Below are positions 24,425 to 60,829 of a stretch of 64,000 nucleotides of DNA, piece after piece. A program made the translations under genes and the position numbers. The stretch spans positions 740,552 through 804,551 of the forward strand of contig NZ_LWDV01000010.1 in assembly GCF_001693735.1 (NCBI RefSeq), in the 5' to 3' direction. Position 1 is the stretch's first letter. Each line of letters starts with the position of its first letter. The notes beneath the pieces are model-generated. The model did no database searches and had not been told where the DNA came from. It saw only the letters and a program-made list of their open reading frames with translations. This stretch comes from Orenia metallireducens (lineage in GTDB: Bacteria; Bacillota; Halanaerobiia; Halobacteroidales; Halobacteroidaceae).

Positions 24425-27400
24425 TTATTGAGGTGATAAAAAATTTAATATATCTAATATTAAATTAACTTTATCTTGATCAGTTAAATTCTTATTAGAT
24501 ATCTTAATTTGAGTTTCATTACTTGCCACAAATTTAAGTCCATCAAACTCTTGAATTATAGATATTAGCTTCTCCCCTGATAGAAAATGGTTTTTAGTAA
24601 ATTGTAGCTCCAAAAATTGACCTTTTTCTTTGATTTGTGCTAAGTAGATTTCTCTTCCCTTTACCTTAATTTTAGCCAATTCTAATAAAATTATTACTTC
24701 TTCTTTTAAATCACCAAACCTATCTTTCAATTCTTCCTTTAATCGATTGTACTCTTCCATATCTGAAATAGCATCTATCTTCTTATATACTTCAATCTTC
24801 TGTCTGGAATCACTGATATATTCATCAGGTATATAAGCATCTACCTTTAGCTCTAATGATATCTCTACCTCTTCTTCTATTCCTTCATTCTTTAAGTTCT
24901 TCACAGCTTCTTCTAATAATTTACAATATAAAGAGAATCCAATAGCTTCAATATGACCATGTTGTTCAGGACCTAATATATTTCCTGCTCCTCTAATCTC
25001 TAAATCCCTCATAGCAATCTTAAATCCTGATCCTAAATTAGTAAACTCTTTAATAGCCTTCAATCTCTTTTCAGCTATCTCAGAAAGTATCTTTTCTGGC
25101 TTATATAATAAATAAGCATAGGCAATTCTATTGGTTCTTCCAACTCTACCTCGCAGTTGATAAAGTTGTGATAAACCTAATTTATCTGCTTCATTAATAA
25201 TAATTGTATTTACATTTGATATATCCATACCTGTTTCAATAATAGTTGTACAGACCAATACATCAAAGTTTCCTTCTAAAAAGTCTAACATTAGCTCTTC
25301 TAATTTCAACTCACTCATCTGACCATGTGCAATTGCTACTCTAGCATCAGGAACTAAGCGCTGTACTTGAGCTGCAATCTGTCTAATATCTTTGACCCGA
25401 TTATGTACAAAGTAAACTTGTCCTCCACGATTTATCTCTCTTTGAATAGCATCTTGAATCAAATCCTCATCATATTTTCCTACAAAGGTACGAATAGGAT
25501 ATCTATTCTCTGGTGGAGTCTCTATCAAACTTATATCTCTAACTCCAACTAAAGACATATGTAATGTTCGTGGAATCGGTGTTGCAGTCAAAGTTAGTAC
25601 ATCAACACTCTCTTTTAACCTCTTTAACCTCTCTTTCTGTTTTACTCCAAAACGTTGTTCTTCATCAACTATTACTAATCCTAAATCCTTAAATTTAATA
25701 TCACTAGATAATAATCTATGAGTTCCTATTACAAGATCTACACTTCCATCAGCTAAACCCTCGATAGTACTCTTCTGCTCTGCAGCTGTCCTAAAGCGAC
25801 TTAACATCTCTACATTAATAGGATAATCTGCAAAACGGTCAACTAAGTTATTCCAATGTTGTTGAGCTAAAATAGTCGTTGGAACTAAGAATACAGCCTG
25901 TTTCCCATCCATAATAGCCTTAAAGATTGCTCTAATTGCGACCTCTGTCTTTCCATAGCCTACATCACCACATAACAATCTATCCATAGGCTGCTCAGAT
26001 TCCATATCATCTTTGACAGCTTCAATCGCCTTTATCTGATCCGGGGTCTCTTGATATGGAAACTCCTCTTCAAACTCCTGTTGCCAAATAGTATCCTCTC
26101 CAAAAGAGTATCCTCTTTGAAGTTCTCTTTTAGCATATAATTCTAGTAACTCTTCAGCCATCTCTTCAACAGACTGTTTAACTCGAGCTTTTGCCTTATT
26201 CCAACTATCCCCATCTAATTTATGTAATTTTGGCTCTTTATCCTGTAAACCTACATACTTTTGAATCAAATCTACTTGTTCTGTAGGTATATATAATTTA
26301 TCATCCTTGGCGTATAATAAGACAAGATAATCTTTATTCTTTCCTTGTACCGTCAAAGTTTTTATTCCTAAATACTTACCTATCCCATGATTCTCATGAA
26401 CAACATAATCACCTTGCTTTAAATCAGTAAACGAAGATAATTTGACCCCCTGATCAAAGGCCTTGACCCTCTTCCTTTTCCGTTTATTCTTCTTAAAAAT
26501 CTCATTTTCAGTATAAAAGATAAATTTAATATCAGGTAAGATAAATCCATTAGATAGATTATTTACAGTTAAAACTATATTCCCTAATTTTAATTCATCT
26601 GTAATGTTAGATATAACTTTTGCAGGTAAATCTACTTCTTGTAACCTTTCTTTTAACTTTTTAGCTTTACTCTTACTTGATAAACCAATTACAATTTTAT
26701 AATTATCATTAAAATAACCTTTAAGCTTATCTACAAACAGTTGAATTTTACCCTGATATGCTTCTAACCTTCTACTATTAAACTCTATAGTAAATTTAGT
26801 ATCGACAAAATCTATATCTTTAGTGATAGGGGACAGATATAGTTTATAATTATCTTTCCTATAAATTAACTGGCCAAAATCTATAAATAAATTCTTATAA
26901 CTCTCTAATACTCTTCCTTGTTTTAGCAAATTAGAATAGCTCTGACTAATATTTGACAGAAATTCAATAGCCGCTTCTTTCAATTTGATCGGATTATCAA
27001 AGATTATAATATCATTAAAATAATCTAGCAGGGTAGTAGGTTGATAAAAATAATTTAAATATTGCCTAACTTCTGGAAAGTAAATACCTTCCTTCATCTG
27101 CTCTAAGTTATTATTTGTAATTTCTTTAATTCTTTGTCTAGCCTCTTTAGGCATACTCTTAGATTCTTTCTCTAAATCCTTCTCCATTTGATTTAAAGCT
27201 ATATCTATCTTATCTCTAGGTATAATAAACTCAGTAGCTGGTCCTAATTCTACCTCACTTAATTCACCTTTAGAGATTTGTGTCCCTAGATCAAAATTAC
27301 GAATCGATTCAATCTCATCACCAAATAACTCTATTCTAATTGGGTTATCAACAGTATAAGGATAAAAATCTACTATTCCACCTCTGACACTAAACTGCCC

Positions 27401-27913
27401 CTTAGACTCTATAATATCAACTCTCTCATAACCCATCTCTACCAAAGAGGATGATAACTGGTGTATATCTAATTCTTGATTTAAGGATAGATTAATTAAG
27501 CACTCTTTATACACTTTATAGGGGACAATAACCTCTAATAAAGCCTGAATGGGTGCTACAATCAACTTATCTTCATTATTAACTAAACTATTAAGAACCC
27601 TTAGCCTTTCAGCCTTAACACTCTGTTCAATCTCTAAGGATTCATGGGGCAAAATCTCCAATCTAGGAAATAGTAAAACTGCATCTTCTGAAACTAATCT
27701 AGTCAAATCTTCATAGATATCATCGGCTTTTTGCATAGTAGAAGCAACAATTAATAGACCTCTATTTAATCTGTTTTTAAGATTAGCAAGAAAGAAATTC
27801 TGACTACTATCATCTAATCCTATTATTTTTACTTCTTCTTTTGAATGATAATAGGTCAATAAATCCTCAAATTGTATATGACCATTCATCAAGTTTAATA
27901 AACTCTGTCCCAT
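24425..27913 (-). CDS. mfd: Transcription-repair coupling factor Mfd
   Basis: 1162 aa, normal Mfd length. It removes stalled RNA polymerase from DNA lesions and recruits UvrA. Domains in order: UvrB-homology region (about 1-330), RNA-polymerase-interacting domain with GDYVVHENHGIGKYLGI (about 490-560), superfamily 2 translocase with Walker A GDVGYGKTEVA near 650, DEEQRFG box, LTATPIPRTL and the QLRGRVGR motif, then the C-terminal TRCF autoinhibitory domain (about 1000-1130). A large conserved housekeeping gene in its usual place between fin and spoVT. Confidence 0.96.
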   Translation of the reverse strand: MGQSLLNLMNGHIQFEDLLTYYHSKEEVKIIGLDDSSQNFFLANLKNRLNRGLLIVASTMQKADDIYEDLTRLVSEDAVLLFPRLEILPHESLEIEQSVKAERLRVLNSLVNNEDKLIVAPIQALLEVIVPYKVYKECLINLSLNQELDIHQLSSSLVEMGYERVDIIESKGQFSVRGGIVDFYPYTVDNPIRIELFGDEIESIRNFDLGTQISKGELSEVELGPATEFIIPRDKIDIALNQMEKDLEKESKSMPKEARQRIKEITNNNLEQMKEGIYFPEVRQYLNYFYQPTTLLDYFNDIIIFDNPIKLKEAAIEFLSNISQSYSNLLKQGRVLESYKNLFIDFGQLIYRKDNYKLYLSPITKDIDFVDTKFTIEFNSRRLEAYQGKIQLFVDKLKGYFNDNYKIVIGLSSKSKAKKLKERLQEVDLPAKVISNITDELKLGNIVLTVNNLSNGFILPDIKFIFYTENEIFKKNKRKRKRVKAFDQGVKLSSFTDLKQGDYVVHENHGIGKYLGIKTLTVQGKNKDYLVLLYAKDDKLYIPTEQVDLIQKYVGLQDKEPKLHKLDGDSWNKAKARVKQSVEEMAEELLELYAKRELQRGYSFGEDTIWQQEFEEEFPYQETPDQIKAIEAVKDDMESEQPMDRLLCGDVGYGKTEVAIRAIFKAIMDGKQAVFLVPTTILAQQHWNNLVDRFADYPINVEMLSRFRTAAEQKSTIEGLADGSVDLVIGTHRLLSSDIKFKDLGLVIVDEEQRFGVKQKERLKRLKESVDVLTLTATPIPRTLHMSLVGVRDISLIETPPENRYPIRTFVGKYDEDLIQDAIQREINRGGQVYFVHNRVKDIRQIAAQVQRLVPDARVAIAHGQMSELKLEELMLDFLEGNFDVLVCTTIIETGMDISNVNTIIINEADKLGLSQLYQLRGRVGRTNRIAYAYLLYKPEKILSEIAEKRLKAIKEFTNLGSGFKIAMRDLEIRGAGNILGPEQHGHIEAIGFSLYCKLLEEAVKNLKNEGIEEEVEISLELKVDAYIPDEYISDSRQKIEVYKKIDAISDMEEYNRLKEELKDRFGDLKEEVIILLELAKIKVKGREIYLAQIKEKGQFLELQFTKNHFLSGEKLISIIQEFDGLKFVASNETQIKISNKNLTDQDKVNLILDILNFLSPQ

Positions 27914-28023: not shown

Positions 28024-28245
28024 TTAATGTATTTGATCATTATGAATAACACTTGACCAGTCATAATCTTCTGCACAGTCATCACAGGTCAAATTAATAT
28101 ATACAGTATCATTTTCCATTTTTATTATATCTTCTTTCTCTTGGTCAGTCAAGATGTTTAAACCTAGACTTTCTTGACTAAAATCTCCCAATTCAAGGTG
28201 TTCAATTATTTTTTGACATTTATCACAACGATAAATAACATTCAT
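28024..28245 (-). CDS. fin: Anti-sigma-F factor Fin
   Basis: 73-aa zinc-ribbon protein of the Fin (YabK) family. Two CxxC knuckles are present (Cys 7/10 and Cys 54/57) and the family signature SLGLNILTDQEKEDII is clear. In B. subtilis Fin binds sigma-F in the forespore and helps the switch to sigma-G. Start chosen at ATG 28245: GGAGG lies 8 bases upstream. Its ATG overlaps the stop of the upstream membrane protein gene (ATGA). Position between pth and mfd is the conserved one. Confidence 0.9.
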   Translation of the reverse strand: MNVIYRCDKCQKIIEHLELGDFSQESLGLNILTDQEKEDIIKMENDTVYINLTCDDCAEDYDWSSVIHNDQIH

Positions 28246-28610
28246 ATTGTGAACCTCCCTATTAAATAATTCCAAGCCATATGGATAAGTGACGCTGTTA
28301 AGATAGCCAATACTATGTTACTGAGATTCCAAATAGTCAAGGTTATGTAAGCAAATAAGAGATGGCTAAGCACAGCTAATAGAGCAGCAACCTTATTATT
28401 CAAATAATCAAAAATTCCTTCGATAATACCAAAGATAAGATGAACTAATATTAAATTACCTCCAAATATATAGAAGAGAGTTGTCTTCAAAATTTCTTCT
28501 ATTATGGGAATAATATAAATTATAGCTTGATTACCAATTATAGATACTAAGTAACGGTTGATAATAAAAGCTAAGAAAGAAGCTAGTAGTCCTGTAAATA
28601 CAAAATTCAT
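28242..28610 (-). CDS. Compact PrsW-like membrane protease
   Basis: 122-aa membrane protein with about four helices. Residues arranged like the PrsW/CPBP-type intramembrane metalloprotease set are visible: EE at 38-39 followed by Lys 42 (IIEEILKT), Glu 64 in IFGIIEGIF, His 83 (LSHLLF), and His 110 in HMAWN. Full-length PrsW is about twice as long, so this is a minimal version. In B. subtilis PrsW cuts the anti-sigma factor RsiW; a similar role here is inference. The stop codon overlaps the fin start, so the two are translationally coupled. ATG 28610 has a weak site (AGGAG, 6 bases upstream). Confidence 0.6.
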   Translation of the reverse strand: MNFVFTGLLASFLAFIINRYLVSIIGNQAIIYIIPIIEEILKTTLFYIFGGNLILVHLIFGIIEGIFDYLNNKVAALLAVLSHLLFAYITLTIWNLSNIVLAILTASLIHMAWNYLIGRFTI

Positions 28611-28704
28611 AATTGACTCCTAAATTAATTATAGTTAAACAGGGGTAATGAAATTATATAAAATTCCTCTAATTATTATAGCCCAATCAATTTTAAATAT
28701 ACAA

Positions 28705-28728
28705 AAACCTGAGAATATTCTCAGGTTT
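28705..28728. terminator. terminator of pth
   Basis: 24-base perfect palindrome (AAACCTGAGA, ATAT, inverse), 15 bases after pth, followed by TTTGTATATTTAAAA on the minus strand. Confidence 0.8.
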
Positions 28729-28743
28729 AAAGATATAATATAT

Positions 28744-29298
28744 TTAATTATATTTATTCATCGCTTTATTCAAATCCGTTTCTAGATAAAGATTAATAGC
28801 TGAAGCCGATTCCTTTATTGCTTCTTTTATAGTATCCTCTTCTTCTTTACTAAACTTTCCTAAGACATAATCAACAACTGTTCCATAGAGAGGACGACCT
28901 ATCCCTACACGCAATCTATTAAATTCTTTTGTACCTAAATGATTAATAATAGAGCGAATACCATTATGCCCACCATGTCCACCTTTAGGCTTTAACCTAA
29001 TTTGACCTACTTCCAAATCTAAATCATCATAAATTATAAGAATATCTTCTGCTTGGATATTATAATAATCTGCTAAGGTTCTTACTGCCTCACCACTATT
29101 ATTCATAAAGGTTTGGGGCTTAGCCAAAATAACCTTCTCTCCACCAATTCTGGTTTTAGCAACTAAAGCCTTCTTCTCTTTACTACTTACCTCCTCTTTA
29201 CACTCCTTAGCCAAATAATCAATGACCATAAAACCTACATTATGGCGAGTCGCTTCATATTTAAACCCTGGATTTCCTAAACCAACTACCAACTTCAT
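28744..29298 (-). CDS. pth: Peptidyl-tRNA hydrolase
   Basis: 184-aa Pth, recycling peptidyl-tRNAs released from stalled ribosomes. Catalytic set visible: LGNPGFKYEATRHNVGFMVID with Asn 9 and His 19, PQTFMNNSGEAV, and IIYDDLDLEVGQIRLKPKGG. Full length. Preceded by AGGGGTTATA before ATG 29298. Sits after rplY and before the PrsW-like/fin pair (spoVC position in Bacillus). Confidence 0.96.
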   Translation of the reverse strand: MKLVVGLGNPGFKYEATRHNVGFMVIDYLAKECKEEVSSKEKKALVAKTRIGGEKVILAKPQTFMNNSGEAVRTLADYYNIQAEDILIIYDDLDLEVGQIRLKPKGGHGGHNGIRSIINHLGTKEFNRLRVGIGRPLYGTVVDYVLGKFSKEEEDTIKEAIKESASAINLYLETDLNKAMNKYN

Positions 29299-60651: not shown

Positions 60652-60799
60652 TATCTATAAATCCCCTACGGGTTCTTTGAACCCTTCGTAAACAATAAGT
60701 GCCTAAAAAAAACTACTAAGCACTTATTGACTCTACTCTGCCTTTATCCCATATATAATAAAAACCAATCTCTAATTTATTATCTCCAACTTAACTTAA

Positions 60800-60829
60800 A
60801 ATATACCAAAATATAAGTAGCTTTGTCAA
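60800..60829 (-). promoter_or_regulatory. metG: candidate distal promoter of metG
   Basis: Minus strand TTGACA, 18 bases, TATATT. It would add about 175 bases of extra leader with a strong stem (CAATAAGTGC...GCACTTATTG) before the T-box. Confidence 0.5.

Follow-up and report, generated by a model that had tools for sequence, protein, structure and literature searches.

A sporulation-associated family of putative minimal PrsW/CPBP-clan membrane proteases encoded between pth and mfd

The small gene that precedes fin in Orenia metallireducens, here called gene X, is a member of a discrete, sharply bounded, single-copy and syntenic family which carries conserved putative active-site residues and is present in about one genome in three of the phylum sample. 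Its presence tracks sporulation, in an association that ignores phylogeny, and we read its product as a putative minimal five-helix protease of the PrsW/CPBP clan. The family, whose very small members are putatively proteases embedded in the membrane, is apparently undescribed so far; no description of it was found in the freely accessible literature searched.

Lists of sporulation genes compiled from Bacillus subtilis miss genes that are absent from Bacillus. If gene X encodes a forespore protease, many Clostridia-type spore formers would possess a step of signalling or processing for which no counterpart is known in the model organism, and the protein would also be a very small natural enzyme with which to study glutamic-type intramembrane proteolysis.

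Results

Organization of the locus

The window, that is, the whole stretch of O. metallireducens DNA that was analysed, has 64,000 nucleotides, and on its minus strand the genes follow in the order prs, ctc (L25), pth, gene X, fin, mfd, spoVT and a spoVB-like gene (positions of the central features are given in Table 1). Gene names were assigned by eye, with the exception of Fin, and pth, mfd and ctc were traced across loci with the proteins of the window; in Bacillus, pth goes by the name spoVC. In the translated reading frame of gene X the motif residues appear in the order E38 E39 xx K42, E64, H83 and H110-x-x-W113-N114. A preliminary description of this DNA had pointed to these residues, in PrsW-like order, in a protein of 122 residues, and to a four-base overlap (ATGA) of its gene with the start of fin; the residues are present as named, and the overlap is seen in the sequence. 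The Fin protein of the window scores 59.2 bits against the Pfam model, above the cut-off of 23.7, and 46.2 against the NCBIfam equivalog model for Fin, below the cut-off of 95. The terminator-like stem-loop that follows pth sits directly upstream of the -35 element of the promoter-like sequence preceding gene X.

Table 1. Features of the gene X locus in the window
Feature	Position	Strand	Basis or remark
gene X, putative glutamic-type intramembrane protease, 122 aa, five helices	28242..28610	-	ATG start
fin, anti-sigma-F factor Fin, 73 aa, zinc-ribbon-like, two CxxC pairs	28024..28245	-	Pfam PF10955, E=5.1e-16
ATGA overlap of the gene X stop (TGA 28244-28242) and the fin start (ATG 28245-28243)	28242..28245	-	sequence
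sigma-F-like promoter, GTATA (-35) N14 GGCTATAAT (-10), 92 nt upstream of gene X	28675..28702	-	pattern match
likely intrinsic terminator after pth, stem-loop AACCTGAG..CTCAGGTT then TTTTT	28703..28727	-	read from sequence
pth, peptidyl-tRNA hydrolase	28744..29298	-	name by eye
mfd	24425..27913	-	name by eye

Extent and conservation of the family

A single-sequence search found homologues of gene X at E<=1e-3 in 13 of the 61 genomes searched as relatives. Of the 398 genomes in the phylum sample, a 13-member profile detected the family in 136, each with one match apart from one split match, and a deeper 120-member profile returned the same 136 genomes at E<=2e-19 together with one borderline match at 5e-4. 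By the labels of the tool, the 136 genomes span 57 families. Recurrence on this scale goes far beyond chance. Scanning of contigs with a conserved-peptide pattern yielded 19 gene X loci, whose titles include assemblies of Orenia metallireducens, Halonatronum, Natroniella, Alkaliphilus, Tepidanaerobacter, Bacillota, Clostridiales and Selenomonadales. Some of the loci L015-L033 come from genomes already represented by other loci, and identical proteins were counted once. Six matches carried the mark '1 TGA'; the idea of a selenoprotein was rejected, as the TGA is a genuine stop that the profile match merely overruns.

Residues K42, G61, E64 and H83 are invariant in all 152 distinct sequences, and E38, E39, H110 and N114 are present in 151 of them, the sole exception being a fragment (L159). 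H57 is kept in 145 of the 152, and at position 68 there are 111 sequences with D and 40 with E. Eight columns are invariant across 120 diverse members, which remained of the 152 after a 65% identity filter and omission of the fragmentary sequence. Comparison of the window copy with that of another genome of the same genus gave dN of 0.085 and dS of 0.51, which indicates purifying selection on gene X.

Assignment of the protein to a clan

The gene X protein of the window matched no Pfam or NCBIfam family at E<=10. When the 120 family members were compared singly with Pfam (E<=1), 42 matched PrsW-protease weakly and 22 matched Rce1-like, and no further Pfam family was matched by more than three of them. 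Among ten members scanned singly, one (L041) passed the gathering cut-off of PrsW (PF13367), with 28 bits against 23.5. Seven of ten members matched PrsW or Rce1-like as forward sequences, and none of the same ten did so when reversed. With a narrow PrsW HMM the margin was slight, 13.4 bits for the family and 8.0 bits for reversed sequences. Profile-profile comparison with a local set of PrsW proteins (18 usable out of 28 PrsW loci inspected) resulted in a probability of 1.6% and a score of 18.9, the best of 20 column shuffles reaching 16.9. As a route to PrsW membership this comparison was discarded, being too weak with 18 local proteins, and the wider Pfam models did better; because of this weak match we file gene X in the PrsW/CPBP/APH-1 clan and not in the PrsW family. 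A search of PDB sequences with the family profile gave no match at E<=10.

The AlphaFold model of the protein (mean pLDDT 95.7, pTM 0.88) consists of five long helices, one of which, comprising residues 34-49, holds E38, E39 and K42 together. Aligned by VIA-align, the model matched three APH-1 chains along 120 of its 122 residues, with Z of 10.2, 10.1 and 9.1 at 2.6-3.0 A, the next row having 6.4. These values are to be read with the caveat that similar Z scores are often seen among helical bundles. Chains of PrsW or Rce1 were not among the VIA-align matches listed (68 chains given), which excludes nothing, and Foldseek gave no PDB match of the model at E<=0.001. The core of transmembrane helices and the polar putative active-site residues that define the clan are both found in gene X, the structures compared being the model and the APH-1 chains. 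APH-1, CPBP and PrsW are classed as homologues in the accessible text of PMC6588880. According to an excerpt of PMC4602095, PrsW motifs are EExxK, a further H and HxxxD, and those of Rce1 are EExxxR and HxxxN; the motif set of gene X is a mixed form, with EExxK of the PrsW type and HxxxN of the CPBP type. The preliminary description had spoken of a minimal PrsW-like membrane protease and had expected a PrsW or CPBP profile match. The matches of the family to PrsW and Rce1-like, the fold and the invariant motif residues agree with that description, and the part that did not hold is a match of the window protein on its own.

Neighbourhood of gene X and its relation to fin

The most constant neighbour of gene X is mfd, which follows it in all but four of the 133 assessable loci (129), while pth stands before it in 99 of 129. 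Distances between gene X proteins correlate with those between Mfd proteins (r=0.66, reached by 0 of 500 permutations), indicating that gene X is largely inherited with its neighbourhood, i.e. vertically; L123, in which gene X lies away from mfd, is an exception. Several loci hold further genes. A CBS-domain-pair-like gene (identified by eye) stands between pth and gene X in L131, L133, L140, L142 and L144, an insertion suggesting that sporulation or regulatory genes accumulate in this interval, and in L096 and L105 a gene for a GerMN-like sporulation lipoprotein (also by eye) is inserted between gene X and mfd. In L119, about 900-1230 nt upstream of gene X and near an ABC transporter gene, a repeated LNRTIVGWK frame with varying spacers resembles a CRISPR array read as protein.

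Judged by a local profile in the 136 genomes, fin lies directly after gene X in 33 of 134 assessable loci. Pfam Fin was found in 47 of the 398 genomes: 20 have both genes, 116 gene X alone, 27 Fin alone and 235 neither, and the presence of Fin with gene X (20/136) and without it (27/262) does not differ significantly (p=0.25). Within the order, gene X occurs in nine of 13 genomes, with fin adjoining in all nine, and the remaining four have fin without gene X (G005, G009, G011 and G010, the fin of the last being a partial match with an internal stop). In G005, which belongs to the same family as the window, a terminator-like stem and a sigma-F-like box lie between pth and fin, and gene X is missing; it is likewise absent from the fin loci of G009 and G011. 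Conversely, in L012/L037 (G060) gene X stands directly before mfd and fin is missing, while L200-L202 keep fin and lack gene X. The two appear as spore-linked genes that come and go independently at one site, and since each is kept without the other, neither needs the other. Where both are present they are closely packed, the spacing being at most 3 nt in 26 of 41 measurable loci (out of 42 fin loci) and exactly the ATGA overlap (-4) in 14 of the 41. Fin has no transmembrane stretch (its best 19-residue hydropathy window is 0.26), and for this reason it is an unlikely intramembrane substrate of the gene X protein.

Promoter-type sequences

Upstream regions were scanned with consensus patterns for sigma-F/G, sigma-E, sigma-K and sigma-A; apart from the strict sigma-F-like pattern, these scans and the matrix scan given below covered 149 of the 152 loci, three with less than 120 nt upstream being left out. 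A strict sigma-F-like pattern precedes gene X in nine of 42 loci with fin and in two of 110 without it, and none was found on the reverse strand of the regions upstream of gene X. The broader forespore (sigma-F/G) type pattern occurs in 15 of 41 fin loci, with two occurrences on the reverse strand, and in loci without fin it was found in seven of 108 on the forward strand and in none on the reverse, against 1.45 in shuffles, a weak enrichment. No sigma-E, sigma-K or sigma-A pattern was found on the forward strand upstream of gene X in the 149 loci. With a matrix built from twelve sigma-F-like sites, nine of 31 further fin loci scored 14 or more, and no reverse strand of the fin loci did so; eleven of the scored loci had lent strings to the matrix, and the ten of these with fin are excluded from the 31.

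The motif of the type found in the window is also present in the loci of five relatives (L002-L006), and in L200, a relative's locus without gene X, it precedes fin. Within the 64 kb of the window the strict pattern was seen twice with 1.9 expected, and thus the site before gene X owes its weight to where it lies and to its recurrence in relatives, not to rarity alone. The other match, at 60779-60806 (-), is separated by about 420 nt from the metG-like gene downstream of it, an interval without any reading frame of at least 60 aa on that strand, and may be due to chance or belong to a small unlisted gene. According to passages of PMC3789822, sigma-F is distinguished by a G upstream of the -10 box. 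Fin of B. subtilis is expressed partly under sigma-G according to passages of PMC5942855, and CsfB and sigma-G are the subject of PMC3174212, as its accessible part indicates. Gene X and fin of the window probably share a transcription unit which, judging by the promoter sequence, would be expressed in the forespore.

Co-occurrence with sporulation genes

SpoIVA was found in 336 of the 398 genomes of the phylum sample, namely in 130 of 136 with gene X and 206 of 262 without it (p=3.7e-6 in a test that ignores phylogeny). Seen from the other side, 130 of the 336 SpoIVA-positive genomes have gene X and 206 lack it. Five of the six gene X genomes without SpoIVA have SpoIIR and the sixth is 61% complete, so that SpoIVA or SpoIIR is present in 135 of 136. 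In one genome (G134, contig C258) spoIIR lies about 7.5 kb from gene X on the same contig.

Discussion

The explanation we prefer, and consider reasonably probable, is that gene X encodes a forespore-expressed intramembrane protease of the PrsW/CPBP/APH-1 clan, which has a membrane substrate and is co-transcribed with Fin without acting through it. The product would be a minimal (~125-residue) five-helix protease embedded in the membrane and specific to endospore formers, with a predicted active site in the bilayer to which helix 2 would contribute EExxK, helix 3 the E, helix 4 the H and helix 5 HxxxN. In the lineage of the window, a forespore promoter of the sigma-F type directly after the pth terminator would transcribe gene X together with fin, and translation of gene X may be coupled to that of fin. 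The putative protease probably acts in the forespore membrane early in sporulation, where it would cut a membrane-anchored protein that is probably not Fin.

A closer link to Fin had been proposed in the preliminary description, and one could imagine that gene X works through this protein and times the switch-off of sigma-F by cleaving either Fin itself or a membrane protein with which Fin is partnered. The tight packing of the two genes, with the exact ATGA overlap in a third of the measurable cases, the forespore-type promoter common to both and the retention of the pair in nine of the 13 genomes of the order would all fit such a mechanism. Nevertheless, fin follows gene X in only a minority of assessable loci, its presence is not significantly associated with that of gene X, three relatives (G005, G009 and G011) keep fin without gene X, one of them with the same promoter type, and Fin is soluble by hydropathy. 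We therefore regard action through Fin as very unlikely. Conservation of the pair held in part, in nine of the 13 genomes of the order, fin being absent from most gene X loci elsewhere, and the proposed functional coupling was not borne out.

Another question is whether the protein is an enzyme at all. It might lack catalytic activity and serve as an APH-1-type scaffold or chaperone, in which the fold and the polar residues are kept for structural reasons; APH-1 is its best structural match, and the protein is small and without a soluble domain. APH-1 is not known as the catalytic subunit. What speaks against this possibility is that every motif residue, including the two glutamates, is kept in 151-152 of the 152 sequences, and that QExxR is reported for APH-1 in place of EExxR (PMC6588880, accessible text); we consider it unlikely. 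Somewhat less credit is due, in our opinion, to the view of gene X as a housekeeping membrane protein of a pth-mfd operon, whose absence from non-sporulating genomes would be a phylogenetic coincidence. The constancy of mfd and pth as neighbours agrees with it, and so does the small number of forespore-type promoters in loci without fin; on the other hand, a single gene X genome, the incomplete one, lacks both SpoIVA and SpoIIR, and forespore-type promoters do occur in the loci with fin, two observations that both ignore phylogeny.

Extending the forespore-protease reading beyond the window, we would tentatively suggest, as a conjecture less likely than not, that some of the smallest PrsW/CPBP members perform an ancient and unrecognised regulated intramembrane proteolysis in the forespore of a large share of non-Bacillus endospore formers. 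This activity would have been lost or replaced in Bacillus, and its substrate might link septation or engulfment to the transition from sigma-F to sigma-G.

Comparison with known systems places gene X between several of them. PrsW is the site-1 protease of RsiW in B. subtilis. In gene X the EExxK motif, a conserved E, an H and a final Hxxx motif succeed one another as they do in PrsW (PF13367), but gene X ends on HxxxN where PrsW has HxxxD, and its 122 residues form five helices, whereas most PrsW proteins have eight transmembrane helices (an excerpt of PMC3482391). Moreover, the Orenia genome carries a separate full-length PrsW of 224 residues, from which gene X is distinct; such a full-length PrsW was found in all 13 genomes of the order. 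With CPBP/Rce1-like proteins (PF02517) gene X has in common an EE motif and HxxxN, and differs in having EExxK instead of EExxxR, in its small size and in its sporulation-linked locus. APH-1 of gamma-secretase shares the fold of the gene X model (the best chain at Z 10.2 and 2.6 A) but is larger (240 residues in the chain), bears QExxR and belongs, as one of several subunits, to a complex of eukaryotes. Finally, Fin (YabK) resembles gene X in being its neighbour and probable partner in transcription, in the window as in the 33 assessable loci where the two adjoin, but is a soluble zinc-ribbon-like protein whose presence has no significant association with that of gene X.
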